From: a virus | Strand: one strand, 5' to 3' | IMG/VR virus record: IMGVR_UViG_3300010885_044285 | Coordinates: 1-21,880 of that record | DNA: 21,880 bases | Shown here: positions 2,701 to 14,805 of the stretch, piece after piece | How positions within the stretch are numbered: the stretch's first letter is position 1 | How the letters are laid out: every line of letters starts with the position of its first letter | Translations under genes and position numbers: made by a program | Notes under the pieces: model-generated | Seen by the model: only the letters and a program-made list of their open reading frames with translations | Told to the model about the DNA's origin: nothing | The model's database searches: none

Positions 2701-2745
2701 TTATTTCTCCTTGTGTAGTGGACTATATTGTGTCCTGTTATTACT

Positions 2746-2754
2746 ATTATATCA
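2746..2754 (-). promoter_or_regulatory. extended -10 promoter candidate before the SSB gene
   Basis: On the minus strand this reads TGATATAAT, an exact TGnTATAAT extended -10. The TGA is the primase stop codon. No good -35 is present at 16-18 bases. A transcript would start about 40 bases before the SSB ATG and leave its AGGAG site intact. Confidence 0.45.
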
Positions 2755-3711
2755 CATAACAGCGTACTCAAAATGCGGAATTGCATTCTTTATACACTGC
2801 TTTATTTCTTCATCAGTCATATCCCCAACATCTTTAGCAGAATGAGGATAGATTATGTTGTGGTCATATTTAGCCCACAAAATATTTTTACTCTTTAACT
2901 TACTAGCAATAGTATTACCTAAAGCCCTTCCAGCAGAATCATTATCTGTCATTATAATAATTGTAGAAGCATATCTATTTAAGTTTTTTATGTTCATGTC
3001 TGATATGCTTCCACCTAATGTGCCTACAGCATTTGGATATCCCGCCTGCCATAGCCTAATAACATCAAATGAAGACTCACAAACAATAATAGTTCCGCCT
3101 TCACGCTTAGCCCTGTGTAGATTAAACATTGTCTTGTTACGTGGCAGATTTACGCTATTCTTAAACTGCTTATCTTTAATGGATCTTCCAATTATTCCTA
3201 CGGGTAGCCCGTCTGGGGAGTGAAGTGGTACAGTTACCATACCCATTGAATTAGAATAGCCTAAACTAAAGTGTTCCATTGCTTCTGCATTAATATTTCT
3301 TGACTCAAAATAATCTATTGCATCTTTGTTGTTAGCCAAATCTGCATGAAGTCGATCTAAAGTTTGTGTAGAGAACTCTGTAAACTCTGGTTTTTCATCA
3401 AGCAAGTCTTTAAGGCCTTCTTCAAAAGCCTCTTCTTGTGTTTGCTTGTTCTGAGATATAAATCTTAGAGCCTCAAAATCATTTCTATCTGTAAGTGCTT
3501 TAACTAAGTCTAATATTGTTCCAGAGGAATCGCAATTTTGATTGTAGCAAATATATAAACCTTTGGAATAACTTACAGCAAAAGCTGGGGAATCTACGTT
3601 GTGATGAAACGGACATAAGCATAAAAAGTCTGTGCCAGTCTCTGAAACAACATCTATATTGCAGGAACGCAAAATAGAACGGAGATCCGCTTTAGTATAT
3701 GCATCTAACAT
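2752..3711 (-). CDS. DNA primase (CHC2 zinc finger + TOPRIM)
   Basis: 319-aa DnaG-type primase, making RNA primers at the fork. Residues 25-70 form a CHC2 zinc finger with C33, H36, C55 and C60; the last pair is C-x4-C rather than the usual C-x2-C. Residues 140-200 fit the N-terminal half of the RNA polymerase core (FSLGYSNSMGMVTVPL). The TOPRIM part has the catalytic glutamate in CESSFDV (E212) and the metal-binding pair in MTDNDSAG (D256, D258). It is shorter than bacterial DnaG (about 580 aa) and has no obvious C-terminal helicase-binding domain, as in many phage primases. The start has AAGGAT five bases before the ATG, and that site overlaps the stop of the 93-aa gene. It lies downstream of the helicase gene, so the two probably act together. 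Confidence 0.92.
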   Translation of the reverse strand: MLDAYTKADLRSILRSCNIDVVSETGTDFLCLCPFHHNVDSPAFAVSYSKGLYICYNQNCDSSGTILDLVKALTDRNDFEALRFISQNKQTQEEAFEEGLKDLLDEKPEFTEFSTQTLDRLHADLANNKDAIDYFESRNINAEAMEHFSLGYSNSMGMVTVPLHSPDGLPVGIIGRSIKDKQFKNSVNLPRNKTMFNLHRAKREGGTIIVCESSFDVIRLWQAGYPNAVGTLGGSISDMNIKNLNRYASTIIIMTDNDSAGRALGNTIASKLKSKNILWAKYDHNIIYPHSAKDVGDMTDEEIKQCIKNAIPHFEYAVM

Positions 3712-3713
3712 TT

Positions 3714-3995
3714 TTATCCTTTAGGTATTAAACTCTGTCCCGAGAAACCTTCATATTTTAGTGCTTTGGCTTTCCCAAGATAAATCCCGTACATAACTAG
3801 GTTAAAGGTATAGTGATCCTTATCCTCATTATATTTTATATTAAATTGTGGCTGTATGTCAAGTACAGGAATATAACCTTTGTCCCGCATCTGCTGAACT
3901 AAAAGCCTTTCATAATTCTCTCTAGAGATCTGGAGTTTAGAGTCATCAATGATGGTTCCGCTTATCCAAAAGTCATGTATTTTTCTTGGGTACAT
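3714..3995 (-). CDS. conserved small protein between helicase and primase
   Basis: 93-aa protein of unrecognised family. It has mixed alpha/beta character: a charged helix around residues 24-39 (ENYERLLVQQMRDKGY), then two strand-like segments (VLDIQPQFNIKY and HYTFNLVMYGIYLG). There is no cysteine cluster, signal peptide or membrane segment. The ATG at 3995 is preceded by TTAGG at short spacing. Its place between helicase and primase, two bases from the primase, suggests a replisome accessory role, but that is only context. A promoter-like extended -10 (4017-4025) lies just upstream, making it the first gene of a primase-SSB-polymerase transcript. Confidence 0.75.
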   Translation of the reverse strand: MYPRKIHDFWISGTIIDDSKLQISRENYERLLVQQMRDKGYIPVLDIQPQFNIKYNEDKDHYTFNLVMYGIYLGKAKALKYEGFSGQSLIPKG

Positions 3996-4016
3996 GGCTG
4001 CCTAACTGTCTTGATA

Positions 4017-4025
4017 ATTATACCA
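4017..4025 (-). promoter_or_regulatory. extended -10 promoter candidate before the 93-aa gene and primase
   Basis: The minus strand reads TGGTATAAT, an exact TGnTATAAT, in the 51-base gap between the helicase stop and the next ATG. The -35 at 16-18 bases is poor (ATGTAA or TATGTA), so activity would depend on the extended -10. Start would be about 15 bases before the ATG. Confidence 0.45.
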
Positions 4026-4046
4026 ATTTAGATAGACATTACATAT

Positions 4047-5273
4047 TTATCCAATAGGAATATCGTAGACCTCTTTAACAATTCCTCGATTAAGGTCCCA
4101 ATCTAGATACATTCCAAACTCAGTTCCATGTCGATTCTTACGGCTTACAATTTCCATGATATTGTTATCTGGATTCTTGTGGATAGCCATTGCCATATCA
4201 GCATCATACTCAATTGCTTTTGACCAAGCAACTTGTGAGAGCATTGGTGGTGAGTCATGGTCTGCTACTTCTTCTGCAGTTGCAGCAGTAATATCAATAA
4301 TGGGAATATTATTACTCATAGCCAACTTCTTAAACGACTTTGAGATATTCATATTTCTTTCTGTTGGTCCCTTTGAATTCTGGTTATCAGCAAACAACTG
4401 GTGATAATCAAGAATGACTATATCTGGCTTATATTGATCAATCTTTCCCTGAATAACATTCGGAGTAACTTCACCCATACCTTCATTTGATACTAGGATA
4501 AACTGATTCTTACCAGCAAACTTCTTTGAGCCCCAATCATCAAATTGGTCAATGTTAATATCTCCTCTAGCAAAGTCTGAAGCTTTGAACAATCCCGACC
4601 CCATCATTGTATAGATACGATCACGCATATTCTCTGGAGTCATTTCAAGGGATACAATCATTGGCTTAAAGCCCTGTTCCCACGCTTTGCAGGCCAAATA
4701 AGACGAGAACCACGTCTTACCCTTACCTGGCCATCCAATCATCACTATAAGGTGCCCTGGAGCCATTCCAGTAGGGTATGCGTAGTCAATAGCCTTAAAG
4801 CCTGTCATGATCCCTGGACTTCCACCCATAGCATCGGAACGGTCTTTAATTGCTTGAAAATGTTTTTCTGCCTCTTTATAATCAGTTAAATCAACATCTC
4901 TAACATTAGAAGTAAGCTTTCCAAGTGTAGCTAGTTCCGCTTGCATTTGTGCAATGACTCTACCCGAAGCTTCTGTCTTAAGACTTGCACCTGATGAAAG
5001 CAAAAGATTTCTTAATCTTGAAGCAAGATATTCATTCTTAAGTTGGTCAAGATAATAGGCAGTCTCACCCTTTGTCTTTGTTGGTTCAAAATCTTTAAAC
5101 TTTTCAGTAAGAACAGATACATCAGGTACTGCTTTAAACTTTAAATAATAAGATTTGAGTCCCTCCCACACATCTCTGTGTGAGGTAAATACTTCATCAA
5201 TGTTGCCAGAGAGGACAACTGAAATATCCTTGTTCTCACATATCGCTGTTATTACTGCTGACTCTGTATTCAT
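4047..5273 (-). CDS. DnaB-like replicative helicase
   Basis: 408-aa RecA-fold hexameric helicase that unwinds DNA ahead of the polymerase. From the chosen ATG, Walker A is GWPGKGKT (180-187), followed by a strand ending SLEM (208-211), Walker B in VILDY (D289), and a C-terminal segment YDADMAMAIH. The first 100 residues are helical, as in DnaB N-terminal domains. The frame could begin at a TTG (5288), but the ATG at 5273 gives the typical N-terminus ESAVITAIC and is preferred; AAAGAG lies before it. It overlaps the upstream 119-aa gene by 38 bases. Oddity: the motif that normally carries a conserved glutamine after a hydrophobic strand reads DITAATAEE, so the glutamine is absent. Confidence 0.93.
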   Translation of the reverse strand: MNTESAVITAICENKDISVVLSGNIDEVFTSHRDVWEGLKSYYLKFKAVPDVSVLTEKFKDFEPTKTKGETAYYLDQLKNEYLASRLRNLLLSSGASLKTEASGRVIAQMQAELATLGKLTSNVRDVDLTDYKEAEKHFQAIKDRSDAMGGSPGIMTGFKAIDYAYPTGMAPGHLIVMIGWPGKGKTWFSSYLACKAWEQGFKPMIVSLEMTPENMRDRIYTMMGSGLFKASDFARGDINIDQFDDWGSKKFAGKNQFILVSNEGMGEVTPNVIQGKIDQYKPDIVILDYHQLFADNQNSKGPTERNMNISKSFKKLAMSNNIPIIDITAATAEEVADHDSPPMLSQVAWSKAIEYDADMAMAIHKNPDNNIMEIVSRKNRHGTEFGMYLDWDLNRGIVKEVYDIPIG

Positions 5274-5595
5274 TGTCTCTTTCTTCAACCATAGTTTTTG
5301 TCTTCGCCCTGATTAGTTCACGGCGCCTTTTATCTTCTTCAATTTGCGTTAAAGTTAAATCTATCTTTTCAAAATTATAAAAAAACCACTGCAGGGGATG
5401 ATTTGGACGACTCATCTTAAAGTAATATTCTAGCAGCTCTTTGGCTCTATCGTAACCAATGCTATCAACAACATCCTGCATAGCCCACTTCTCTCTATAA
5501 CGATTTACAATGGGTGCTTTAGAATAGACCTGTTTATATAAAGCACAATAAAACCCAACTAAACCGTAGGCTAACTTTGCTTCATCTTTGGTCAT
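5236..5595 (-). CDS. possible helicase loader / replication accessory protein
   Basis: 119-aa, strongly basic and helical protein. A central segment (about 46-80) has the pattern IGYDRAKELLEYYF ... HPLQWFFYNFEKID, similar to small phage proteins encoded next to DnaB-type helicases and described as loaders or DnaD-like accessory proteins. The C-terminal third (85-108) is a highly charged helix rich in Lys, Arg and Glu. The gene starts with an ATG overlapping the TGA of the 70-aa gene (ATGA) and ends 38 bases inside the helicase gene, so the two are probably translationally coupled. The loader function rests on position and general character only; no catalytic motif is present. Confidence 0.6.
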   Translation of the reverse strand: MTKDEAKLAYGLVGFYCALYKQVYSKAPIVNRYREKWAMQDVVDSIGYDRAKELLEYYFKMSRPNHPLQWFFYNFEKIDLTLTQIEEDKRRRELIRAKTKTMVEERDNEYRVSSNNSDM

Positions 5596-5804
5596 TTTTT
5601 ACTCGCTTTTAATTCTTCCTCTATTTCGTTGACTTTTTCCATCAACTTATTTTCTACAAAAGTATAAACTCTTTCAGTAGCCTCATCAATATTTTCTCCA
5701 GAGCGCTGATAATCTTCAATTGCAATGCCAACTTTAATGTTTTCAAAGTTGCCTAGGTTCCTAGTAAAATGCAACTCAACTTTAATTCCTGTCTGATTCG
5801 TCAT
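5592..5804 (-). CDS. small conserved phage protein, beta strands plus acidic helix
   Basis: 70-aa protein of unknown function. The first half (VELHFTRNLGNFENIKVGIAI) reads as paired beta strands; the second half is an acidic helix ending in Glu/Lys-rich sequence (ENKLMEKVNEIEEELKASKK). I recall similar small proteins with an N-L-G-N-[FY]-E-[NS] core from other phages near recombination or replication genes, but cannot confirm this here. GAGG lies about ten bases before the ATG. It overlaps the preceding gene by 23 bases and the following gene by 4. Confidence 0.7.
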   Translation of the reverse strand: MTNQTGIKVELHFTRNLGNFENIKVGIAIEDYQRSGENIDEATERVYTFVENKLMEKVNEIEEELKASKK

Positions 5805-6024
5805 CTAACTTGACCTCTTCCTTTTCTGCTATTGAAAATCCTGGCTTAAACTTTTTAGGACCCTTATCTGATAAATGCTGATAAAGCATCATCAAACGAT
5901 CTGATATTGCTATCATAGCATCTAGGTCTTCTTTTTGTCCAGCCAGCTCCATAGCATACTCAAGAACTCTTAATGAAGCATCTAAGGTTTGTTTTGCTTC
6001 TTTACTTAGTTTATTATCTACCAC
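5782..6024 (-). CDS. small helical protein of the replication operon
   Basis: 80-aa protein, unrecognised. Residues about 8-55 are almost wholly helical (LSKEAKQTLDASLRVLEYAM, then DLDAMIAISDRLMMLYQHLS), and the C-terminal end is charged and acidic. I chose the GTG at 6024, which has GGAAG eight bases upstream and overlaps the TAG of the HTH gene. A TTG at 6039 would add five residues but has no ribosome-binding sequence. It may form a helical-bundle adaptor, but nothing shows a partner. Confidence 0.65.
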   Translation of the reverse strand: MVDNKLSKEAKQTLDASLRVLEYAMELAGQKEDLDAMIAISDRLMMLYQHLSDKGPKKFKPGFSIAEKEEVKLDDESDRN

Positions 6025-6533
6025 TCTGGTTGCTTCCAAACTGGTGTAAATGTACCATCGTTATTTTTAACATATAAAATATTTTCCTGTCTCATTATAG
6101 CTTCAATCTCTGCTCTAGAGGGCATGTTGCCTGGATGGACTATACCATCATTTCTGGGTCTGCCTCTATGGACAGTTTTAAAAAAATCGTGCATCTCTCT
6201 AACATCGTCTTCACTCCAGTAGTATTTACCTGGAGTTTTTCTACCATTTAAAGAGTATACTTGTTTGGGAGTTTTTATATTCCCCGCATATAAATGTCTC
6301 TTGATGGTATCTTCATGCTTTCCAATAATTTTACATACTTTTGAGATAGGGTAAGCGCTTTGCATATTTTTCTTAACATCAGTTAATGCAAATGCTACAC
6401 GCTTACCCAACTCATAATCCCAGGCGACCATAAGATCTTCTGCTCTTGATTGTCTTAAGACTTTATAAAGCTTGGCATTTAAATAGAAATACCTAAGCTT
6501 TTCTGAAGTTCCTCTTCTTTTTTTGACAGCCAT
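6018..6533 (-). CDS. HTH DNA-binding protein (MerR/excisionase-like helices)
   Basis: 171-aa probable DNA-binding protein. Residues 60-115 read as a MerR-like winged helix: YPISKVCKIIGKHEDTIKRH followed by YAGNIKTPK and a wing around GRKTPGKYYWSEDDVREMHD. After it comes a conserved-looking segment with HRGRPRNDG and MPSRAEIEAIMR. The N-terminal 50 residues include LRYFYLNAKLYKVLRQSRAEDL. The frame is open to a TTG (6587) and an ATG (6566), but ATG 6533 has AAGG eight bases upstream and is preferred. Even so, it overlaps the zinc-ribbon gene by 55 bases. I recall this architecture from other phages, where it is called a DNA-binding protein. It might regulate the replication operon or mark an origin; neither is shown. 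Confidence 0.75.
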   Translation of the reverse strand: MAVKKRRGTSEKLRYFYLNAKLYKVLRQSRAEDLMVAWDYELGKRVAFALTDVKKNMQSAYPISKVCKIIGKHEDTIKRHLYAGNIKTPKQVYSLNGRKTPGKYYWSEDDVREMHDFFKTVHRGRPRNDGIVHPGNMPSRAEIEAIMRQENILYVKNNDGTFTPVWKQPEW

Positions 6534-6661
6534 ATACCGAACCTTAAATCCCTTTTGATCATCCATCGTTTCCCACACATAACGCAATATAGCTCAACAC
6601 GGATTTTTTGAGAATAAACCCTGTCTACAAAAACTCTACCATTGCATTTTTTACAGTACAT
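6479..6661 (-). CDS. small zinc-ribbon protein
   Basis: 60-aa protein with two CxxC knuckles, C3/C6 and C26/C29, separated by a two-strand segment (VFVDRVYSQKIRVELYC). This is the layout of a treble-clef or zinc-ribbon fold. The C-terminal half is basic, with a short charged helix. Such proteins bind nucleic acid or act as adaptors. It is the first gene of the replication operon, 20 bases after the holin-like gene. Its 3' end overlaps the HTH gene. No strong ribosome-binding sequence is visible (only A/G-rich AAGAAAA). The zinc site is clear; the role is unknown. Confidence 0.75.
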   Translation of the reverse strand: MYCKKCNGRVFVDRVYSQKIRVELYCVMCGKRWMIKRDLRFGIWLSKKEEELQKSLGISI

Positions 6662-6681
6662 TATTTAGTTTTCTTTTTTGC

Positions 6682-6984
6682 TTACTTAGAAGCAACCTTT
6701 TTAGAAGTAGCCTTATTAGGCTTTGAAGCCTCAGACAACTTCTTTTCAACTGTTGATGTAACTGCTTTTGCCACTAGGCCAAATGCTGGGTCTTTCTTGT
6801 TAGCGTAGCGCAATACTACTGGAACAAGTGAAGCCCATAGAGAGTTTGCTACTAGCAACCACTCATGACCACCGAAGCTTTGAATTGACACACCTGTTGA
6901 TGCTGCAACAATTGTTGCCGCTCCAATGATCTGTCCGATCAAGTTACGAACATAAGATTCAATCATTGCTTGATTAATCTTCAT
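6682..6984 (-). CDS. holin-like small membrane protein
   Basis: 100-aa protein with two hydrophobic segments: about 13-33 (NLIGQIIGAATIVAASTGVS) and 41-60 (EWLLVANSLWASLVPVVLRY). A basic Lys/Ser/Ala-rich tail follows. Small size, two membrane spans and a charged C-terminus fit a class II holin, which makes holes in the inner membrane for lysis. The motif NKKDPAFGLVAKA after the second span recurs, as I recall, in small phage proteins labelled holin. AGGAG lies seven bases before the ATG. It has its own promoter-like sequence (7051-7080). No endolysin gene is adjacent, so holin is a reasonable but unproven call; another membrane protein is possible. Confidence 0.6.
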   Translation of the reverse strand: MKINQAMIESYVRNLIGQIIGAATIVAASTGVSIQSFGGHEWLLVANSLWASLVPVVLRYANKKDPAFGLVAKAVTSTVEKKLSEASKPNKATSKKVASK

Positions 6985-7050
6985 TTTTTTCTCCTTTTAG
7001 TTTGTTGGTACTGCTGGGTATCGAAACCCTTTTCTATAATGATTTTTAGC

Positions 7051-7080
7051 ATTATACCGAAAATAATTTCCCATCTACAA
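7051..7080 (-). promoter_or_regulatory. sigma70-like promoter before the holin-like gene
   Basis: TATAAT at 7051-7056 with TTGTAG at 7075-7080 and an 18-base spacer (minus strand). The TAA stop of the phosphoesterase gene lies inside the -10. The -35 matches only the TTG half. A transcript would have a leader of about 60 bases before the holin-like ATG. Confidence 0.5.
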
Positions 7081-7855
7081 CACAAGTGTAGTCAGGGGAA
7101 ATTTCTACTATCTGCACATGAGGATGCTGACCATTCTCAATGTGTGCGATAGCAAAACCTTTTTGCCAATTGTGATTTTGAGTATATTTCATACCATCAC
7201 TTTTTTCATCACACATGTGTCCAATTTCGTATCCACGAATTGTTCTGCCACCAGTTGCTAGTGGGAGTTCGTATGTTTGAAAATGAGAGGCAATTCTGTG
7301 TGAGTGTCCTCTAATCAAGGAAATTTGTAAATCATCAATATCTTTTCTTACAGCACCAGTATCTGCAATTGAAAGTCCATGATGAACGTGAATATCTCCA
7401 AAGCGTTGCTTTGGCAATTCGTTGTAATAAATATAATCATAACCTAAAGAGTCTAAAGACCACAAAGATTCTGGCGTAACATCAGACAAGTACTCTGGAA
7501 GCTTTTTGTCTAGGTAATCAAAAATTCTAATATCGTGATTTCCTAATGCTGAGAATAGTTGAGCGTCTGGAAGCATGTCTCTTGTCTTGGCATAAAAATC
7601 TCTTGCACCTTTGGCCTCATGACGAATCATTGGAACAATTAGATCTCTGCTATCATCCTTATGCAACTGCATAAATTCTGCAGAGCGACCTTCTGTATAC
7701 TTGCTATAGCAAGCTTGATCATCTGTGTCGCCCAAGTAATCTACTACATCTGGCTTAAACCACTTCATAACCTTAAACCATAATTCAATGGCCTTATCAT
7801 CTTGATATGGAAATTGCTGATCAGACGATAGCATCCATTTTAAATCATTACTCAT
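7052..7855 (-). CDS. calcineurin-like metallophosphoesterase
   Basis: 267-aa protein with the full set of calcineurin-like phosphoesterase motifs: SSDQQ (D12; the first motif normally D-x-H), GDTDD (G42, D43), GNHD (105-108), HHG (158-160) and GHSH (183-186). These residues would hold a two-metal centre that hydrolyses phosphoesters in nucleic acids, nucleotides or proteins. The first-motif histidine appears replaced (D-Q-Q), so metal binding may differ slightly. There is no signal peptide, so it acts in the cytoplasm. AAAGGG lies just before the ATG. It is transcribed from a near-consensus promoter (7882-7911), which suggests strong or separately timed expression. The substrate is unknown; DNA processing and RNA/nucleotide turnover are both possible. 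Confidence 0.88.
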   Translation of the reverse strand: MSNDLKWMLSSDQQFPYQDDKAIELWFKVMKWFKPDVVDYLGDTDDQACYSKYTEGRSAEFMQLHKDDSRDLIVPMIRHEAKGARDFYAKTRDMLPDAQLFSALGNHDIRIFDYLDKKLPEYLSDVTPESLWSLDSLGYDYIYYNELPKQRFGDIHVHHGLSIADTGAVRKDIDDLQISLIRGHSHRIASHFQTYELPLATGGRTIRGYEIGHMCDEKSDGMKYTQNHNWQKGFAIAHIENGQHPHVQIVEISPDYTCVVDGKLFSV

Positions 7856-7881
7856 GTAATCCCTTTCTGAGGGTTTAGTTA

Positions 7882-7911
7882 ATTGTATCGCATGTTACTG
7901 TTTTATGTCAA
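7882..7911 (-). promoter_or_regulatory. strong sigma70-like promoter for the phosphoesterase gene
   Basis: On the minus strand, TTGACA (7906-7911) and TACAAT (7882-7887, one mismatch) are separated by exactly 18 bases. It overlaps the 3' end of the HNH gene, whose TGA stop lies in the -35. Start would be about 20 bases before the ATG. Confidence 0.7.
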
Positions 7912-8168
7912 GCGCAATGCGCTTTATTATGCTCTATTCTTGAGCAAAGAAAAAGATTAATTAATCTATTATCTATTTTGTTTTCATTAATATGATGTAC
8001 TGTTTCCCAGTCATCAAGAACTCTATTTATTTGTTTTTCTATTATAAGCCTATGTTCATAATACCAACCCTTAAATGATTTAGGGTGTTCTGCTACCTTT
8101 ACTAACATATAGCCTTCACGACTAATTTTCCTATCACGCTTATTCCAAGCATTGATAGGTTGATACAC
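7908..8168 (-). CDS. HNH endonuclease (free-standing homing type)
   Basis: 86-aa protein when read from the GTG at 8168. The HNH signature is VHHINENKIDNRLINL followed by EHNKAH, giving the catalytic His pair, the central Asn and the last His. The upstream part (ISREGYMLVKV, HPKSFKGWYYEHRLIIEK) matches the strand region that precedes HNH in small phage homing endonucleases. The GTG overlaps the TAG of the preceding gene (TAGTG) and has AAGGG about eight bases upstream. A TTG at 8198 would extend it by ten residues inside the upstream gene and is less likely. Such genes are mobile: they cut near their own site in phages lacking them. It sits between the tail-related small genes and the phosphoesterase gene. 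Confidence 0.85.
   Translation of the reverse strand: MYQPINAWNKRDRKISREGYMLVKVAEHPKSFKGWYYEHRLIIEKQINRVLDDWETVHHINENKIDNRLINLFLCSRIEHNKAHCA
7910..7924. promoter_or_regulatory. perfect inverted repeat touching the -35 box
   Basis: AAGCGCA-A-TGCGCTT: seven-base arms around one central base. It abuts and shares two bases with the TTGACA box of the phosphoesterase promoter. It codes for the last residues of the HNH protein (NKAHCA). The position suits a repressor operator. The minus-strand downstream sequence is not T-rich, so it is not an intrinsic terminator. Confidence 0.4.
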
Positions 8169-8563
8169 TATTCTGACCCTTGCCCTACCGCAACCCAAAA
8201 AATAGTCATACTGCCAGTGGATGCTTGACTAAGTGTAAATCTTACAGAAGATTTAGTTAAATCTGTGGCGGTACCTATGTAAGCAAACGTAGCTTTTGAA
8301 CCACCCATTAAAGTTGCTACAACGTTGGGCTTGTCAGTAAATTTTTTCTTAAAATATACATCAACCTGCGATACACCAGCATTAAATGTTTGGAGTGATG
8401 CATCAACAAGTTGTGTCACTACTTTACCAGTAGCAGGGTCTGTAGTTTTAGATCCTAAATTTATTTTATCAACTGTATCACTTAAATTATTAACAGTTTC
8501 AATTAATGCTTTAATTGTTGTATAATCAACAACTGCATTATCAGATTGAATTACCTTAGCCAT
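8168..8563 (-). CDS. small tail-associated protein with lectin-like beta domain
   Basis: 131-aa protein. Residues 14-35 form a helix with heptad-like hydrophobics (IKALIETVNNLSDTVDKI), suitable for trimerisation. Residues 66-128 are beta-rich, with FKKKFTDKPNVVATL, SSVRFTLSQ and MTIFWVAVG. This resembles the H-type lectin fold that occurs at the tips of phage fibres and in Gal/GalNAc-binding lectins. The assignment rests on pattern only. GGGAG lies about nine bases before the ATG, which overlaps the end of the 133-aa gene by 8 bases. It is the last gene before the HNH insertion. Likely role: detachable receptor-binding tip or decoration protein on the virion. Confidence in the gene is high, in the role moderate. 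Confidence 0.65.
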   Translation of the reverse strand: MAKVIQSDNAVVDYTTIKALIETVNNLSDTVDKINLGSKTTDPATGKVVTQLVDASLQTFNAGVSQVDVYFKKKFTDKPNVVATLMGGSKATFAYIGTATDLTKSSVRFTLSQASTGSMTIFWVAVGQGSE

Positions 8564-8957
8564 CTATTGGTTCTCCCTCTTGATGCACTAGGACTTCTTT
8601 TTGTCCCGCATCTATAATTTCTGTATTAATCCATTGTAATACATCTGGACTTACTACATGCCTACGTTTTGAATCGCTTATAAGATATATTTTACCATCA
8701 GATATGTCCTTGACCAAAGATCCATCTCTAAATCCTAGCGTCCCGCCAGATGTTAGTTTGTTTAAAAACGTGGCATCAATTTTTAAGACAGGAAGGCACC
8801 AAGATTTCATGGCTCTTTCAGAAACAAACTTAAACCTTTTATTTCCTTTTACATAGTAAAAAGAACCAGCGTTTAATCCTACCAGGCCGCTGGGCACAAA
8901 AGGAGCATCTTTAGTTATCTGTGTTGATTTTTTGCGAAAGGCTTTGAGAATATTCAT
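8556..8957 (-). CDS. protein with a duplicated ~43-residue surface-type module
   Basis: 133-aa protein with a basic N-terminus (MNILKAFRKKS). Two copies of one module follow: residues 33-75 (start FYYVKGNKRFKFVSERAMKS) and 90-132 (start IYLISDSKRRHVVSPDVLQW). Each has a strand, a turn with Lys-Arg, an F/V-V-S-x(3)-[ML] helix and a closing strand with a Gly-rich turn. I associate the pattern [IF]Y[LVY]-x(3-5)-K-R-[RF] with repeats in bacterial surface proteins and some phage proteins, but no function is certain. The gene overlaps the 58-aa coiled-coil gene by 47 bases and the lectin-like gene by 8, so it belongs to the tail-linked small-gene chain. Confidence 0.7.
   Translation of the reverse strand: MNILKAFRKKSTQITKDAPFVPSGLVGLNAGSFYYVKGNKRFKFVSERAMKSWCLPVLKIDATFLNKLTSGGTLGFRDGSLVKDISDGKIYLISDSKRRHVVSPDVLQWINTEIIDAGQKEVLVHQEGEPIDG
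8562..8861 (-). repeat. two-copy protein module (diverged internal duplication)
   Basis: Codons 33-75 and 90-132 of the 133-aa gene encode two alignable modules, about 43 residues each. Shared positions include aromatic-Tyr, Lys-Arg, [FV]-V-S and a final [VL]-x(3)-G turn. The DNA copies have diverged and are not near-identical. Confidence 0.5.
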
Positions 8958-9087
8958 CTGCTGCTTTCTCTTTGTCCATCATCTGTGTAATCTCTGCTCT
9001 AAGGATGGCAACCTGAGTTTCATAATTTGAAACCAATTCGCCAATACGTTGTTGTAGTGCAGTAATTACTAACTCTGCTTTTTCCAT
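8911..9087 (-). CDS. 58-aa coiled-coil protein
   Basis: Short gene read directly from the sequence: ATG at 9087, TAA at 8911-8913. The protein begins MEKAELVITALQQRIGEL and is predicted helical throughout, with heptad-spaced Leu/Ile/Val (LVITALQQRIGELV, then VAILRAEITQMM). AAGGAT lies about eleven bases before the ATG, overlapping the stop of the 76-aa gene. It fills what would otherwise be a 137-base gap in a genome with no other gap above 70 bases, and its 3' end overlaps the next gene by 47 bases in another frame. Similar small coiled-coil proteins in tail clusters are often assembly helpers, but no role is shown. Confidence 0.7.
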   Translation of the reverse strand: MEKAELVITALQQRIGELVSNYETQVAILRAEITQMMDKEKAADEYSQSLSQKINTDN

Positions 9088-9094
9088 TTTTTAT

Positions 9095-9325
9095 TTATCC
9101 TTCGCTAATAGTGGCATACTCTTGTAATAATGCCTGTTTTTTAGTATTCTCTTTTTGTAATTCACCATTTAGATTATCTAAATTTTCTTGATTAGGCTGA
9201 GTCAACGAACTTTCAGAAATAATCGCAACATTTATATTATAAATATTTGTTATAATGCTTTTTATATGTTGATTAATTATGCCAAGTTTTTCCTGAGTTG
9301 TTAATTCTGTTTCCATAATATTCAT
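9095..9325 (-). CDS. 76-aa coiled-coil protein
   Basis: Small helical protein rich in Gln, Asn and Glu: two helices (about 9-38 and 46-71) separated by a loop with SLTQPN, so a helical hairpin or trimeric coiled coil. There are no cysteines and no membrane segment. The first ATG (9325) overlaps the preceding stop (TAATG) and has GGTGAT eight bases upstream; an in-frame ATG at 9316 is also possible (see the promoter-like site at 9324-9332). It is followed eight bases later by another coiled-coil gene. Family not recognised; a tail-assembly or virion accessory role fits the neighbourhood. Confidence 0.65.
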   Translation of the reverse strand: MNIMETELTTQEKLGIINQHIKSIITNIYNINVAIISESSLTQPNQENLDNLNGELQKENTKKQALLQEYATISEG

Positions 9326-9332
9326 TATATCA
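9324..9332 (-). promoter_or_regulatory. extended -10 element overlapping a start codon
   Basis: Minus strand TGATATAAT, exact TGnTATAAT, made from the end of the 91-aa gene (its TAA stop lies inside). The -35 is weak (TATTCA at 17 bases). Transcription would begin at or next to the in-frame ATG at 9316, giving a leaderless message. Confidence 0.3.
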
Positions 9333-9600
9333 CATCACCACTATTCTGAATAGACCCCCATTTGCCAACAGGACAACTTGCGTGAGGTAGTTTGGCCTTT
9401 TCAGTCATAAAACAACCACATTTTTTACATGTTTTTGTAGCGCTAATTAAAAAGGGGCAGCTTAAGCAATGTTGTTCATAGCGGTATTTATAGTCTTCTT
9501 CACTTACTCTTGCAATTTTAGGATTAAGTAAGTCCCAAGGTCTGACTGGATCTCCCGCCTGTTTTTCTTTCCATAAATGCCAAGGTGTTTTATCTGACAC
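9325..9600 (-). CDS. six-cysteine zinc-binding small phage protein
   Basis: 91-aa protein. Cysteines 45, 48, 58, 61, 63 and 76 lie in the pattern HCLSCPFLISATKTCKKCG then CFMTEKAKLPHASCPVGKW, two CxxC knuckles plus two more cysteines. Small proteins with this C-P-x-L ... C-K-x-C-G-C-F-M ... C-P-x-G-K-W core are known to me from many tailed phages next to tail genes, without a proven function. Zinc binding is likely. The N-terminus is Trp/Pro-rich (TPWHLWKEK). It starts with GTG, overlapping the TAG of the preceding gene (TAGTG), with GGAG seven bases upstream, so it is translationally coupled. Confidence 0.75.
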   Translation of the reverse strand: MSDKTPWHLWKEKQAGDPVRPWDLLNPKIARVSEEDYKYRYEQHCLSCPFLISATKTCKKCGCFMTEKAKLPHASCPVGKWGSIQNSGDVI

Positions 9601-9860
9601 TACGCTTCTCCGATAATTTGTGATGGAGGAAGCAGCCTTTCAGGATTTGTAAATTCTTTTGTTTCATAATTATATGTTGCTCCAGGAATAACATAGTCTG
9701 ATTCTTTAGACATTTCTTCTGTAATATCTATAATTAAAGGCTCACTTAAAAATATAGCAGAAAGCCTTTCATCGGTATGAAGTACATCTGCTACTTCTCC
9801 GTCTATAATAAAAGCTAGTTTTTTTGGTGGCATTGGCTGTGATTCTTGTTCTTCTGTCAT
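9600..9860 (-). CDS. 86-aa conserved virion-cluster protein
   Basis: Small acidic protein, family not firmly recognised. The central part is beta-rich (KLAFIIDGEVADVLHTDERL, then PLIIDITEE and DYVIPGATYNYETKEFTNPE). The N-terminus is Glu/Gln/Pro-rich, and the C-terminus ends with a Pro-rich segment. It resembles short proteins found beside tail or neck genes in other phages. It is the first gene of the overlapping small-gene chain and has a perfect consensus promoter (9881-9910) directly upstream. AGGAG precedes the ATG by about eight bases. Role unknown. Confidence 0.7.
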   Translation of the reverse strand: MTEEQESQPMPPKKLAFIIDGEVADVLHTDERLSAIFLSEPLIIDITEEMSKESDYVIPGATYNYETKEFTNPERLLPPSQIIGEA

Positions 9861-9880
9861 TTTTATTTCTCCTTATTTAT

Positions 9881-9910
9881 ATTATACCCTAGTGTATGTG
9901 AAGTTGTCAA
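9881..9910 (-). promoter_or_regulatory. perfect consensus sigma70 promoter at end of fibre gene
   Basis: Minus strand TTGACA (9905-9910), 18-base spacer, TATAAT (9881-9886). Both boxes are exact. It lies within the last codons of the 499-aa fibre gene, and the TAA stop is inside the -10. Start would fall just before AGGAG of the 86-aa gene, giving a leader of about 15-20 bases. Confidence 0.75.
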
Positions 9911-11381
9911 GGGTTGATCCTAAATTATTTGCTGTATTTAATTTAATTATTCCTACGCTGGTCTCCCCGTTTGCAAAAGCTTTTGTAGAACCAGTTGCTA
10001 CGTGGGTTAGATCTGTACTCATTTGAGTAGTCAAATTAGTATCTGAATACCCCTTTGCAGTAATATTGTCTCCACTTGTAGCAACTGATAGGCTATATAT
10101 TTTTGAATATGCAGAATTACTGCTTGCCAATTCTTTTTCTGCCGCTGAAACTATTGAGCTACCGCTTGCGGACCATATCTTTAATAAAGAATAATATGTT
10201 GTAGTGGTTGAAGAGGTTACTGTATTGCATTGATAGCAAGTGGTTTGAGATCTATAGCAATTATATCCATCAACATAGTTTGTACCACTTTGACAATATT
10301 GTACCTCATATTGATAGGTATTTAAATTAAATCCCTTAGAACACAGCTCTCCTACTGTTGTGGGACCACAAACATAAGTTGGACCTGGATCAAAGATACC
10401 AACTTCATATACTGTTCCTCCACAAAAATAAGTGCTTCCTGTACAAGCATTTGGCTGTGTGATTGCAATTCCATAACAATCTCCAATATTACAAGTAAAT
10501 CCATAATTTGAATTACAGGTATAAGATTCTACTGAACAGCTACACCCACTTCCTCCAGCATTTGTTGATATTGGAGGCCCATTGCAGGCATAACTTGTAG
10601 TAGTTGATTGATTATAATATGTTGATGCTGCCCAATATGATCCTCTTGCTGTAACCCAAAAAGCTAATCCTGGGCCACCACCACCGCTTGGTATAGATGC
10701 AGATAAAGAGACATTGTTTTTATGAACTTCAATTGTTCTCATTGGATATGTATTTGCTGCATCAGAAAATCCTGGGATGTATGAATTGCTAGCGGCGTTT
10801 GAACTTATACCCCAAGAGTCTGCTGAATTTGTTGCAGGATTTTTATATGAAGAGTAAACAAATCCTGCACTACTTGTTCCAATTTCTTGACTATTATTAG
10901 TTCTGTCAAAAGTGTCTGTAAAGTTTGGTATAAATGCTGTTGCTCCAGATGCTGAATAATAGTAATAGTATGTTGATCCATCTAACGATAAAACTTTATC
11001 TCTTGTATAAAAAATTTGTTGTGGCGTTGTGGCATCTGCCTGAGTTACTGTATAGGGAGAAGATACTACGGTTCCTTCTGCAGTTGTTGATGCTTCGCTA
11101 GGTATGGTTCCATCTGTTATTTTAATCAACTGTGTTGTTACAGAGATTCTATTTGTATATGTTCCAGCAGATCCAATTGTAACTTGGGCTTGCGCTGCTG
11201 AAGAGCCACCAGTATTTGCAGGTCTTGTGCTTTGGGAAGGTCCTGAAATCGTAAAAAATAATTTCCAAACACCAGAAATTTTAACCCACATATTTGAAAT
11301 TGTACGCCATGTCCCAGATATTTTTACATAATTAGCTGTTACTGTTTTCCAAGCATCGCTGATCTTAACATGATAAGTCAT
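9882..11381 (-). CDS. tail protein with triple VKISG-W repeat and Cys-rich insert in a jelly-roll domain
   Basis: 499-aa virion protein. Residues 5-46 are three 14-residue repeats (VKISDAWK, VKISGTWR, VKISGVWK), a motif seen in phage tail and fibre proteins. Residues about 60-150 are Ser/Thr-rich beta sequence. Residues 154-499 look like a concanavalin-A/LamG-like sandwich: FTDTFDRTNN at 154-163, then GPGLAFWVTA at 236-245, YYSLLKIWS at 396-404, and a final LGSTLDNFTYTRV. Between strands, residues 266-385 form an insert with 14 cysteines (all those in the protein) and many Tyr/Asn/Gly, resembling no enzyme I know. This suggests a disulphide- or metal-stabilised loop on a sugar-binding domain, hence receptor binding. 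AGGA precedes the ATG. It lies 8 bases after the 532-aa fibre gene. Confidence 0.8.
   Translation of the reverse strand: MTYHVKISDAWKTVTANYVKISGTWRTISNMWVKISGVWKLFFTISGPSQSTRPANTGGSSAAQAQVTIGSAGTYTNRISVTTQLIKITDGTIPSEASTTAEGTVVSSPYTVTQADATTPQQIFYTRDKVLSLDGSTYYYYYSASGATAFIPNFTDTFDRTNNSQEIGTSSAGFVYSSYKNPATNSADSWGISSNAASNSYIPGFSDAANTYPMRTIEVHKNNVSLSASIPSGGGGPGLAFWVTARGSYWAASTYYNQSTTTSYACNGPPISTNAGGSGCSCSVESYTCNSNYGFTCNIGDCYGIAITQPNACTGSTYFCGGTVYEVGIFDPGPTYVCGPTTVGELCSKGFNLNTYQYEVQYCQSGTNYVDGYNCYRSQTTCYQCNTVTSSTTTTYYSLLKIWSASGSSIVSAAEKELASSNSAYSKIYSLSVATSGDNITAKGYSDTNLTTQMSTDLTHVATGSTKAFANGETSVGIIKLNTANNLGSTLDNFTYTRV
10227..10586 (-). other. 14-cysteine insert in the tail protein
   Basis: Codons 266-385 of the 499-aa protein. 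Cysteines at 266, 280, 282, 289, 297, 302, 312, 320, 338, 347, 363, 375, 382 and 385; none elsewhere in the protein. The flanking sequences (YYNQSTTTSY and TTTTYYSLLK) look like the two ends of a beta hairpin. Confidence 0.7.
11244..11369 (-). repeat. three 42-base in-frame repeats encoding VKIS-x-x-W units
   Basis: Residues 5-18, 19-32 and 33-46 of the tail protein share V-K-I-S-[DG]-x-W-[KR] with an exact 14-residue period. The third copy ends in hydrophobic LFF. Probably a small beta repeat that links the protein to the tail tip. Confidence 0.75.
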
Positions 11382-11389
11382 TTATAATC

Positions 11390-12988
11390 CTATACATATT
11401 TTGCCCACATGTCGCCATCATTTCCACCAGAAGGATCATAAATTGAAGCTGATATATTTCTTACCGATTTTGATCCTCCAGTTTCACTAGAATGAATTGT
11501 ACCGACTGTAACTATATTAGTATCATCTTTAATTGCAATACTATTTCTAGATCTATAAACATTATAAATTAAAAAATTAGCAGTTACTGGCTCAAATAAA
11601 GTTGCAAATTGATCTGCTGCGCCATATTTAATTGAAGCTGTGCTGCCAAAAGCGCTAGTTGCTGATGTAATCTTTAGCCCAGTTGCAGATAATGTATCTG
11701 CTCCTATTGTCCAACCACCAATTGAACCGCTTGCTGATATTAATATTCCTGAAAAATAAGCTGATCCCGCTGGAATAGTAACTGGCGCTGCATCAGTAGT
11801 AACAATGCTAGATGATGTTGAGTTTATTGCAAAAGATATTCCAGTTAAATTATTAATGCTGCTAGAGCTGTATCCTAAAATTCCATATTGATTGATTAAA
11901 ACTCTTGCCCCCGCAGTATCATTAGCTCCTGAATAAAATGTAGTTCCATTTGTAGAAACTTTACTTATTTGCCCAGTAGCATTTTGAATTTGATCGCTAA
12001 CAACTCTTAAGTAATTTGTAGATATCGTGCTAACTGTGCCAGATAGACCTGCTCCAGTTGCAGCATTAGCAACAACAGTTGATGCAAGTGTTCCAGATAT
12101 ATATGCACCTGCTGTAATAGTTCCTGCAAAATATGCATCCCCCGTTGCAGCACTTATATAAAATTGTTTTACCCCTGCATTAAACCCAGCAATTCCTGTT
12201 TTATTTAATACTACTCCTGTTGCATTTGGGGTATCGGTTACAACATTAATTGATCCCGCATTAATTGGAAATGTTCCAGCATACAAAGATCCGCCATCTA
12301 ATTGTATGTCACCATTTGAATTTTTGCTTGCAAAATTATTTCCGCTTGCAGAAAGCGGGGGAGTATTAACATGAATTGGTAAAGACCACGGAGATGTTAT
12401 TGTTTTTCCATCAGTAGTAGTTGCTTTTGATCTTACAAAAATAGAATAGGTATGGTTTGTTTCAAGCTTTTTTATATCTAAGGTGACTCTTGAATTGCTA
12501 TCTAAATCATTTGGAACGGGATCTGTAGTACCTGGCTTAGAAACACCTGGTGGAGAACCAGCGCCTGGATTAGCTGTTGAATCATTAAGTACTTTTAATG
12601 AATCCGCCAATGGAAGATTTTTTTGACTGAAAATATCAAATACTGTAGAACCGCTTGTAGCTGTTACAGTATTCATCTTAATAGAATTAATTGGAGTTGC
12701 GCCTGAGTTTGAATATGTTTTCTTTGTTCCCACTTCATTTACATTATAGGGGGTTGCATATAAATAATATTTTTGACCTGGGTCTAGAGTAGAAAAACTT
12801 TCTACTTTTGTATCTCCTGTTGTTCCTGTGCATGCTCTTGTTAAAGTGCGTCTTCCAGCTGTGCTTCCATTAGTAGGAAATATTTCCCATTTTATTTTAG
12901 TAACATTTGCAGGCTTTATAAAAGTAACATCAAAAGATGTTGATGTTAATTTTGAAACGTTTAACGAAGCAATTGTGCCTACAGCCAT
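11390..12988 (-). CDS. tail fibre protein with fibronectin-type-III-like N-terminus
   Basis: 532-aa Ser/Thr/Gly/Ala-rich protein. Residues about 1-100 and 103-210 read as two FN3-like beta sandwiches (first: SFDVTFIKPANVTKIKWEI ... LDPGQKYYLYATPYN; second: SRVTLDIKKLETNHTYSIFV). A Pro/Gly-rich stretch (140-160) lies within the second. Residues 215-532 are fibre-like, with KQFYISAATGDAYFAGTI (274-291) and a similar AGSAYFSGILISASGSIGGW (407-426), the kind of repeat found in tail fibre shafts. The end, GNDGDMWAKYV, is a common fibre terminus. AGGAG precedes the ATG. Such proteins form trimeric side fibres or tail-tip adhesins for host recognition. No enzymatic motif was seen. Confidence 0.82.
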   Translation of the reverse strand: MAVGTIASLNVSKLTSTSFDVTFIKPANVTKIKWEIFPTNGSTAGRRTLTRACTGTTGDTKVESFSTLDPGQKYYLYATPYNVNEVGTKKTYSNSGATPINSIKMNTVTATSGSTVFDIFSQKNLPLADSLKVLNDSTANPGAGSPPGVSKPGTTDPVPNDLDSNSRVTLDIKKLETNHTYSIFVRSKATTTDGKTITSPWSLPIHVNTPPLSASGNNFASKNSNGDIQLDGGSLYAGTFPINAGSINVVTDTPNATGVVLNKTGIAGFNAGVKQFYISAATGDAYFAGTITAGAYISGTLASTVVANAATGAGLSGTVSTISTNYLRVVSDQIQNATGQISKVSTNGTTFYSGANDTAGARVLINQYGILGYSSSSINNLTGISFAINSTSSSIVTTDAAPVTIPAGSAYFSGILISASGSIGGWTIGADTLSATGLKITSATSAFGSTASIKYGAADQFATLFEPVTANFLIYNVYRSRNSIAIKDDTNIVTVGTIHSSETGGSKSVRNISASIYDPSGGNDGDMWAKYV

Positions 12989-12998
12989 TTATTTACTC

Positions 12999-13925
12999 CT
13001 AATTTAACTCTATATAGTATTCAATATCTAAGGCAACTCCGTATGTTTTTGCTATTGGTGTTGACAAAGATGATTTACTAATAATGTAATCAGACACAGA
13101 AAGCTGTTCTGTTGTAGAAACTTTTAAGCAATCAAGAGTTATGCATGCAGTTGAATCTGTATCAATCTGTACAGTCTTTATTGGACCTAAAAATTGAGAT
13201 GATGTATTTACAGTATTTCCAGAAGGATCTTTGATTGTTTGTGGAAAAGGAACAGATAAAACTTGATAGTCTGCACTTGAAGATAAGGCGTATGTAAATA
13301 TAGCTTTATATCCTGCAGAGTCAATCATTGTTACTGTAAAATTGCCAGCAACTGTATTATATGCAAGAACCTGAAGATGATCTAAACTGCTATATCCAGA
13401 AATGTCTATTTCAGACATGCTATTAGATAGCGTTGTGCTTGGTAAAAGCTCTATTGAATAATTTCCTATTCTTGGAGATTGTGCACCTTGGGGTATAAAA
13501 CCAATAATGTTTGCTGTCCCCGCAATTTGTGCCCAACTAGAAATGTCTGCAAAATCTACAATTATTTTATTATCGTTTTTTGCTGCATCTGTTGCAGCAT
13601 TTGTTGGATATATTGCAACTTCATAAATATTTGCATATAAACTTGAAGGAAGCGTAGCACGAACAACTACTAAATCAGGCGTTGTGATTGTGGCAGCCTG
13701 ATATGTTTTCATTGTTATTGGATATCTACCAGTTTCAAAAGTTAACTCTACATCGTTTATTGTTGGAGATGATTGAATAGCTCCAATTGCAAGATCAGCT
13801 GCCCAAGTATTTTTTGCACCAGCAAGATATTGCAAAATTACCTTACGACCATTTGTTGTAATAAGGTTTTCTGAACGTCCTATTTCAATTCCATTTTCTT
13901 TAAATACGTATGTTCCTTTAAACAA
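12999..13925 (-). CDS. minor tail protein, two beta domains
   Basis: 308-aa protein. The first domain (1-115) has the pattern of phage tail proteins beginning YVFKENGIEIGRSENLITTN, with a following LQYLAGAKNTWAADLAIG. The second (about 120-270) is a beta sandwich resembling carbohydrate-binding, galactose-binding-like modules (YSIELLP, ISGYSSLDHLQVLAYN, TVQIDTD, CITLDCLKVS). The gene starts with TTG, not ATG; no in-frame ATG occurs until residue 72, and GGTGGGGGTG lies just upstream. The start overlaps the upstream stop by 8 bases, so translation is coupled. Likely a tail-tip or fibre-attachment component. Confidence 0.75.
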   Translation of the reverse strand: MFKGTYVFKENGIEIGRSENLITTNGRKVILQYLAGAKNTWAADLAIGAIQSSPTINDVELTFETGRYPITMKTYQAATITTPDLVVVRATLPSSLYANIYEVAIYPTNAATDAAKNDNKIIVDFADISSWAQIAGTANIIGFIPQGAQSPRIGNYSIELLPSTTLSNSMSEIDISGYSSLDHLQVLAYNTVAGNFTVTMIDSAGYKAIFTYALSSSADYQVLSVPFPQTIKDPSGNTVNTSSQFLGPIKTVQIDTDSTACITLDCLKVSTTEQLSVSDYIISKSSLSTPIAKTYGVALDIEYYIELN

Positions 13926-14760
13926 TTGTTACACCCCCACCTATAGCAAATGTTGCTGTTACTGCCGATGATGTGCCAGTTGTGTAGTGTGCTACAAAAG
14001 TAACAACATAGTTTCCAGAAAATACTCCGCTCACAGGCACTATTTTAAAACGTGCCTTTCCGCTTAAAAGCGAAACGTATCCTGGATAATTATAATTTGT
14101 TGATGCAATTGATGGGTCATAGTTTAAAAAATAAGATTTTTGTAAAGTGGGAGCGTACGGCCCAACAAAAGTCTTCATGTAAAATTCTGCTGGTGGAGTA
14201 TTTGCTCCCGTTACGGATACTGTATATCCTGTTGCATCAGAAATCCCATCCCACGTAGCTTGTATATTACTAGCTGAATTACTTGTAAAATTAATTGTAG
14301 TTTTATTAATTGGTTTATTTGATATAGATGTGCTGCCTGCATTTGCCCCAGTTGCTGTCGTGTCTACAGCATATTCATATTGCAGGCTATCAGATAGGTC
14401 ATCTCCTGGATTAAATGAAACTGTGATATCAACATAGTTTGATCCATTTACTGTTACATATTTTGTTGCAGAAGAATCATTGTAATCCCAATATAATCCT
14501 GTTGGAGCATTTAATGAAGTATTTGGAGCAACTTCAAGATATTTGATTTCTTCTACACGACCAGTCATTCCAAGATCACTTGCTAACATAGCCATATAAT
14601 CTGAATCGTCCATAACAACCACTTCAGCATAGTAGTCATTCATATACTTGCTTATAAAATCTTTGTTGGCTCTAGGGTCAGATTTTGCCAAATACAGCGT
14701 TCTTCTCTTCTGGACAGAAGTTGCTAGATTGCTAGATTTACTATAGATTGAGTCTGTCAT
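13918..14760 (-). CDS. minor tail / tail-tip protein with FN3-like domain
   Basis: 280-aa protein. Residues 1-78 are charged and mixed alpha/beta (YMNDYYAEVVVMDDSDYMAM, GMTGRVEEIKYLEVA). From 79 to the end the sequence is Ser/Thr/Asn-rich beta, including an FN3-like unit around 83-190 (APTGLYWDYN ... ATWDGISDATGYTVSVTG). The C-terminus ends in a hydrophobic glycine-rich strand. AAGGAG lies six bases before the ATG, and a promoter-like sequence (14776-14805) precedes it, so this gene may head a fibre-gene transcript. No enzymatic motif. Its position after the tail-tip hub suggests attachment of fibres. Confidence 0.7.
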   Translation of the reverse strand: MTDSIYSKSSNLATSVQKRRTLYLAKSDPRANKDFISKYMNDYYAEVVVMDDSDYMAMLASDLGMTGRVEEIKYLEVAPNTSLNAPTGLYWDYNDSSATKYVTVNGSNYVDITVSFNPGDDLSDSLQYEYAVDTTATGANAGSTSISNKPINKTTINFTSNSASNIQATWDGISDATGYTVSVTGANTPPAEFYMKTFVGPYAPTLQKSYFLNYDPSIASTNYNYPGYVSLLSGKARFKIVPVSGVFSGNYVVTFVAHYTTGTSSAVTATFAIGGGVTIV

Positions 14761-14775
14761 TTTTTCTCCTTTCTT

Positions 14776-14805
14776 ATTATATCATTGAAGCGATGGATCA
14801 TGCAA
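14776..14805 (-). promoter_or_regulatory. extended -10 promoter candidate before the fibre genes
   Basis: Minus strand TGATATAAT (TATAAT at 14776-14781) with TTGCAT at 14800-14805 and an 18-base spacer. It combines an exact extended -10 with the TTG half of a -35. It lies at the end of the 1310-aa gene, and the AAGGAG of the next gene begins about four bases after the -10. Confidence 0.5.

Follow-up and report, generated by a model that had tools for sequence, protein, structure and literature searches.

Putative host-type promoters at the gene junctions of an uncultured actinophage-like virus, and a predicted T4-like hairpin at one of them

In Corynebacterium glutamicum, the motif TGnTATAAT serves as an extended -10 element and many messenger RNAs (mRNAs) are leaderless, according to the parts of the published account drawn on here (PMC3890552). 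A different arrangement is described for the T4 genes e, soc, 49, I-TevI and segB and for Aeh1 mobE, in which a promoter lies within a hairpin that hides a ribosome-binding site; at gene e and I-TevI, read-through mRNA is silenced while internally initiated mRNA is free, in the sections of the two reports used here (PMC2988022, PMC3014915). Both arrangements bear on a 21,880-base IMG/VR virus record, IMGVR_UViG_3300010885_044285, which was analysed over its whole length (hereafter the window) and in which all genes run in one direction. At its gene junctions stand promoter-like elements of two sub-types, an extended -10 (TGn-TATAAT with a weak or no -35) and a TTGACA-18-TATAAT pair. With the exception of the element at position 7051, these are very probably promoters read by a primary sigma factor of host type (sigma-A/HrdB-like). 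They stand at the 3' ends of genes, and in part within them, in a nearly gap-free genome, where they would give downstream genes their own transcripts.

The promoter grammar emerges most clearly from counts over the window and 11 related contigs, with 1269 genes called by a home-made gene caller. TGnTATAAT occurs in the sense orientation 126 times in 97 kilobases (kb) of same-strand junctions (1.29 per kb) and 30 times in 844 kb of gene interiors (0.036 per kb), which makes it 36 times denser in the junctions; in antisense orientation it is found 3 times in these junctions and 17 times within genes. Shuffled junctions held 6.1 sites on average, the reversed motif occurred 8 times, and five altered motifs occurred 13, 5, 3, 4 and 3 times. 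A first-pass annotation of this DNA had proposed that gene junctions share a promoter grammar, and had asked for the density of matches inside genes and in shuffled sequence as the comparison; the densities are not equal, and the proposal is supported. In most of the 13 related contigs searched for strand bias, 11 of which entered the junction counts, most copies of the motif lie on a single strand, presumably the one that carries most genes (29 versus 7 and 23 versus 7 in two of them, where reversed-pattern controls gave 2-6). Likewise, five cultured Streptomyces phages (TunaTartare, Kenrey, MeganTheeKilla, Tomas and Blueeyedbeauty, assigned to Stanwilliamsviridae in their records) carry TGnTAYAAT 12-15 times on one strand and 0-8 times on the other, with controls of 0-4. 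For the second sub-type, TTGACA followed after 16-18 bases by TAnnnT was counted 37 times at junctions and 31 times in genes, which comprise nearly nine times more sequence. The preference for an 18-base spacer, already noticed in the first pass, is real: 34 of 56 junction TTGACA elements lying 14-22 bases before a near-TATAAT hexamer lie at exactly 18. A phage-encoded sigma factor was considered and rejected, since no Sigma70_r4 match above the cut-off was found in the 13 related contigs, which fits the use of a host sigma factor.

The window itself encodes tail proteins, small proteins, an HNH protein, a metallophosphoesterase (gene mpe), a holin-sized protein, DnaB, the small unknown product of g93, primase, SSB and DnaE. 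The HNH and DnaE genes were named through syntenic annotated relatives, and the gene at 6682-6984, which had no family match, takes the label "holin" from the annotation of cultured relatives. A scan with DnaB yielded 324 candidates, of which 80 were kept as relatives, with a gene order largely the same as in the window; the window and these relatives are actinophage-like viruses. The seven sites proposed in the window are as follows.

2746-2754, minus strand: extended -10 TGA-TATAAT of the putative ssb promoter; the primase gene stops at its TGA.
4017-4025, minus strand: TGG-TATAAT in the loop or top of a long predicted hairpin between dnaB and g93; across the sequences compared, the hexamer matches at least 5 of 6 positions and usually lies 26-31 nucleotides before the g93 start.
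7051-7056, minus strand: TATAAT composed of the final codon and the stop of the metallophosphoesterase gene; probably lacks conservation as a promoter.
7882-7911, minus strand: TTGACA-18-TACAAT, candidate promoter for the metallophosphoesterase gene; its -35 contains TGA (7910-7908), the stop of hnh.
9324-9332, minus strand: TGA-TATAAT before g76; overlaps the stop of the 9325-9600 gene.
9881-9910, minus strand: TTGACA-18-TATAAT, matching the consensus at 12 of 12 positions; the -10 contains the TAA that ends the 9882-11381 gene.
14776-14784, minus strand: TGA-TATAAT between a 1310-residue tail gene and a 280-residue gene; conserved in relatives.

All seven hexamers are present where the first pass had placed them, six as exact TATAAT and the one at 7882 as TACAAT. 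The four it had listed as exact TGnTATAAT (2746, 4017, 9324 and 14776) are indeed exact and are the only ones on the whole minus strand, while the plus strand has one. It had also assigned TTG-starting -35 elements with 18-base spacers to 7051, 7882, 9881 and 14776; the spacers are correct, but a full TTGACA stands only at 7882 and 9881, and the elements at 7051 (TTGTAG) and 14776 (TTGCAT) each match the consensus at three of six positions. Thus a TTGACA lying 16-18 bases before TATAAT was found at 9881 and, with 11 of 12 matches, at 7882. An extended -10 (TGn-TATAAT or one mismatch) on the coding strand upstream of a start was found as well, at 7051 not as a conserved feature. Against a baseline of 500 dinucleotide shuffles of the 25 junction strings in the window (819 bases), exact TATAAT occurs 7 times where 1.39 are expected and TGnTATAAT 4 times where 0.10 are expected; in both cases none of the shuffles reached the observed count.

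Five of the seven sites (2746, 4017, 7882, 9324 and 14776) recur at the corresponding junction in relatives, 7051 does not, and 9881 has few relatives to be compared with. In these comparisons identical rows were removed, leaving 30 of 37 for hnh, 17 of 19 for the tail gene, 64 of 74 for mpe and 30 of 36 for g76, while 73 primase/ssb loci gave 56 distinct ones. At the primase/ssb junction the hexamer is exact in 47 of the 56 and matches at 5 of 6 positions in the other 9, and TG is kept in 55, the exception being locus L038; the cultured phages have TGG- or TGC-TACAAT before ssb in four cases and TGT-TATACT in one. All 17 distinct tail-gene ends carry TGGTATAAT (15) or TGGTAGAAT (2), even though tail protein identity is as low as 22%. 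At the hnh end, TTGACA lies at the stop in 17 of 30 distinct sequences, 16 of them with TACAAT at exactly 18 bases, and the other 13 have no TTGACA there. The dnaB/g93 rows have exact TATAAT in 26 of 31, mostly in TGn context. Upstream of g76, which encodes 76 residues, exact TATAAT is found in 25 and TG in 23 of 30 distinct relatives. Alignment with these relatives indicates that g76 probably starts at ATG 9316-9314, rather than at 9325; since the relatives' starts align at 9316, the overlap of -10 and ATG in the longest open reading frame is probably an artefact of start calling, and the ATG at 9316-9314 lies seven bases after the -10, a leaderless-type spacing. For 9881, three distant g86 relatives have TATAAT (2) or TACAAT (1) upstream, and the case for this promoter rests mainly on its perfect match. 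By contrast, TATAAT stands at the position corresponding to 7051 in 10 of the 64 distinct mpe ends, where 9 of the 10 are TATAATG start/stop overlaps, and the close relative L006 has a TATAAT farther downstream instead, so that 7051 was rejected as a conserved promoter. Given such promoters, separate transcripts would be expected for ssb-dnaE, g93-primase, the metallophosphoesterase gene, g76, g86 and the 280-residue gene behind the tail gene, and a division of the single coding strand into sub-operons is plausible.

TunaTartare and Blueeyedbeauty, cultured Streptomyces phages: candidate -10s, TGGTACAAT before ssb and TGCTATAAT before a membrane protein.

One junction, dnaB/g93, differs from the others in its predicted RNA.

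3993-4045, minus strand: predicted hairpin of the read-through RNA, which includes the -10 as well as the g93 ribosome-binding region and AUG.

Our tentative reading, to which we give slightly less than an even chance, is that dnaB/g93-primase carries a conserved on/off switch, an extended -10 inside a hairpin covering a ribosome-binding site, and that this would be a separate, sequence-diverging invention of the logic of T4 gene e. The mRNA reading through from dnaB would fold into a hairpin hiding the g93 ribosome-binding site, the internally started mRNA would lack its 5' arm, and g93, possibly with the primase gene behind it, would thereby respond to which promoter is in use. Folding of 38 sequences of this junction gave a mean z of -2.45, with 25 of them below -2 and the hexamer at or close to the loop; arm sequences are not the same from clade to clade and yet are still predicted to pair. 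In silico, the ribosome-binding site and start codon of g93 are paired in the read-through RNA and freed in the mRNA without the 5' arm: the mean unpaired probability of the start region is 0.25 in the former and 0.47 when the RNA begins at the inferred internal start, and it is higher in 29 of 31 sequences. Exchanging arms among 15 divergent sequences (kept from 31) changed the mean energy from -12.9 kcal/mol in the native pairs to -7.3, and none of 20,000 permutations reached the native value, a comparison from which the shared ancestry of the 15 is not removed. This alignment-free test was chosen after RNAalifold, applied to a MAFFT alignment of the junction, had found no consensus structure. 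That null result weighs against the hairpin, as do the 13 of 38 sequences whose z is not below -2 and the mixed column counts, in which 72.7% are paired versus 32-53% when slid, and pairs changed on both sides are not above shuffles. In 104 of 114 TGnTATAAT sites that were kept for folding, promoter-spanning hairpins hiding the next start occur at 26, where 30.9 are expected; a general rule that promoters sit in such hairpins was rejected, and 4017 is special. As a separate observation, the 5' arm contains ATGTAA, a start followed immediately by a stop, just after the dnaB stop in 23 of 31 aligned sequences.

Hairpins are also predicted in the leaders that follow other promoters, most regularly before ssb.

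2720-2735, minus strand: leader hairpin GGAC...GTCC, located where the ssb mRNA is predicted to begin and followed by AAGGAG.

In an alignment of 54 rows (the window and 53 of 54 distinct leaders, L038 being omitted because its hexamer call is doubtful), every ssb leader has a perfectly paired stem, 4 or 5 pairs long, which comes in five sequences (GGGC, GGAC, GAGC, GATGG and GACGG with their complements) around a similar A-T-rich loop; it is possible that this stem stabilises the mRNA or is a site of SSB autoregulation. A rival account would extend the former role to all of these structures and see in long leaders and hairpins stabilisers of mRNA 5' ends that have no regulatory role. It is encouraged by the stem shared by every aligned ssb leader and by the 11 of 32 leaders of at least 30 nucleotides at TGnTATAAT sites whose folding z is below -2, often immediately at the predicted start. 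We regard it as a serious possibility but somewhat doubtful, for it leaves unexplained the hairpin at 4017, whose 5' arm lies upstream of the predicted start, and it is also opposed by the finding that promoter-spanning hairpins are no general feature. The Rfam search of the window and five loci returned no match.

A further alternative for 4017 is that the site is an RNA element only, its UAUAAU loop being offered to a nuclease or RNA-binding protein, or else a DNA operator, and in either case no promoter. The position of the hexamer in the loop or top of the hairpin in most sequences would suit it, as would the lack of TG in L030, L045, L048, L053 and L074. We consider it unlikely, because the 26 exact hexamers among 31 rows mostly share the TGn context of the other junction promoters; moreover, a sequence-specific operator would fit poorly with arms whose sequence changes from clade to clade, and the G-U pairs favour RNA.

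The first-pass annotation was also right that stop codons overlap these elements, with TAA inside the -10 at 7051, 9324 and 9881 and TGA supplying TGn at 2746, and it had missed a further overlap, the hnh stop within the TTGACA of the 7882 promoter. Its suggestion that promoters are built into gene ends by means of stops, as a design, did not hold. Among the 56 distinct primase/ssb junctions the primase stop is TGA serving as TGn in 34, TAA in the hexamer in 5, TAG touching the hexamer end in 4, in 7 a TAG next to a TAGACA -35 and 23-27 bases upstream, and in the remaining 6 a stop at other positions, while the promoter stays constant. Likewise, the tail-gene stop lies at offsets of -2, 7, 8, 9, 11, 13 and 15 from the motif. 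For a broader view, 110 of 182 TGnTATAAT sites were kept as junction sites with both neighbours present, and 98 of these after near-duplicates were removed. Most stops fall within about 30 bases before the hexamer, and 27 stops lie at the motif's ten offsets (-2 to 7), where the density over offsets 8-29 would give 19.1 (P=0.05), a slight crowding only. The motif itself supplies an explanation: TGATATAAT has a TGA and, in a different frame, a TAA, and an upstream gene that reads into the promoter will therefore terminate within it in as many as two of the three frames. We therefore read the "built-in stop" as mostly passive, in that selection would keep the promoter sequence and the stop would fall where the letters of TGATATAAT permit. 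That selection instead places stops within promoters, coupling the end of translation to the start of transcription, might be argued from the 34 primase stops used as TGn, from the TTGACA on 17 of 30 hnh stops and from the TAA within the hexamer at several other junctions, but it is very unlikely, as the register shifts freely under a constant promoter, the crowding is small and the available registers are forced by the motif letters alone.

That AT-rich junctions and TAATG overlaps yield a functionless TATAAT by chance is highly improbable as a general account. In its favour, TATAAT with at most one mismatch is at chance level in the window junctions (14 sites versus 14.9 in shuffles, not significant), 19 of the 26 exact TATAAT on the minus strand lie inside genes, and TATAATG overlaps are seen at 18729 and in 9 of the 10 relatives that carry TATAAT at the mpe stop. 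Against it, exact TATAAT, TGnTATAAT and TTGACA-18 are strongly enriched and strand-specific, and the sites at 2746, 7882, 9324 and 14776 are conserved in relatives, which refutes chance for 2746, 7882 and 14776. Chance is the best reading of 7051 and of one hexamer absent from the first-pass list.

18729-18734, minus strand: TATAATG at a TAATG stop/start overlap, with the GGAG of the next gene's ribosome-binding site immediately before it; chance type.

It is one of two exact junction TATAAT, with 9324, among the seven in the window that read TATAATG. The minus strand holds 246 one-mismatch forms of TATAAT, and with their junction count at chance level such forms were rejected as evidence. The 19 exact hexamers inside genes imply that a junction is marked by TGn or TTGACA context and not by the hexamer alone.

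Several points weigh against the promoter reading. The promoter role is a prediction from the DNA sequence, and a literature search, judged by titles and abstract openings, found no paper on their promoters. The relatives are not mutually independent, the gene caller is home-made and most contigs are fragments. The 30 TGnTATAAT inside genes may be active in part and in part due to chance, and the contrast between strands or with controls is weak in contigs G003 (9 versus 6) and G007 (4 versus 0, with controls of 7 and 10). The -35 at TGn sites is weak, the sole upstream position above 60% being a T at -23; two Sigma70_r4 matches below threshold were seen in related contigs; and 7051 fails conservation.

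Further observations concern leaders and terminators. The leaders between mpe and the holin gene are conserved and structured after the mpe stop (e.g. in L033, L002, L004 and L010), with outer arms such as GTAGATG/CATCTAC around a GGTTTCAAATCC-like arm and a small hairpin, and have no Rfam match; in L010, ARAGORN calls an odd "tRNA-???" in this leader (2406-2499). Exactly 6 bases separate TGnTATAAT from ATG at 9 of the 98 junction sites, and leaderless-type spacing is also seen at the tail-gene end of one clade (L043, L047, L055 and others). In G002, G004 and G013, several promoters begin in the T-tract of a terminator-like hairpin, e.g. CCCGCCCTTTTGGTATAAT, so that terminator and next promoter share bases. 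In the cultured Streptomyces phage loci L134, L135, L136 and L138, a terminator-like hairpin right after the primase stop is followed by TGnTACAAT, a leader hairpin, AGGAG and ssb.

In summary, the sequence evidence points to promoters of an ordinary kind, well placed and well conserved, whose overlap with stops has an equally ordinary reason; one junction, 4017, stands out. For a group of uncultured actinophage-like viruses the analysis provides a promoter map that can be tested, indicates that what selection keeps at a gene junction is the promoter and not the stop register, and offers a simple account of seemingly built-in stops, namely that the consensus itself contains two. If the reading of 4017 is true, an RNA switch like that of T4 would also stand before replication genes in a group of phages unrelated to T4.

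Among known systems, the cultured Streptomyces phages share with the window the order HNH, metallophosphoesterase, DnaB, unknown, primase, SSB and DnaE (HNH was seen in four of the five, the stretch of TunaTartare examined not reaching it), and all five have an extended -10 before ssb. They differ in having a longer primase/ssb gap, in the terminator-like hairpin that lies between primase and promoter in TunaTartare, Kenrey, MeganTheeKilla and Blueeyedbeauty, and in having no dnaB/g93 gap, and hence no counterpart of 4017. The sigma-70/sigma-A extended -10 of C. glutamicum, as presented in the portions of the source used, resembles the sites described here in combining TGn with TATAAT, in its weak -35, in its place before genes and in lying, in part, 6 nucleotides before ATG, whereas here the setting is a phage genome, the promoters run into upstream gene ends and full TTGACA sites prefer an 18-base spacer (PMC3890552). 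T4 and Aeh1 are unrelated phages; compared with what the cited sections of those reports describe, the -10 at 4017 is of the host extended type and not of the T4 late type, and the genes behind this predicted arrangement are a small unknown one and primase, where the known cases have lysis or endonuclease genes (PMC2988022, PMC3014915). The likeness lies in a hairpin that is predicted only on the read-through mRNA and whose 5' arm the internal promoter would omit (PMC2988022, PMC3014915), and in this respect 4017, on paper, resembles a switch of the T4 gene e type.

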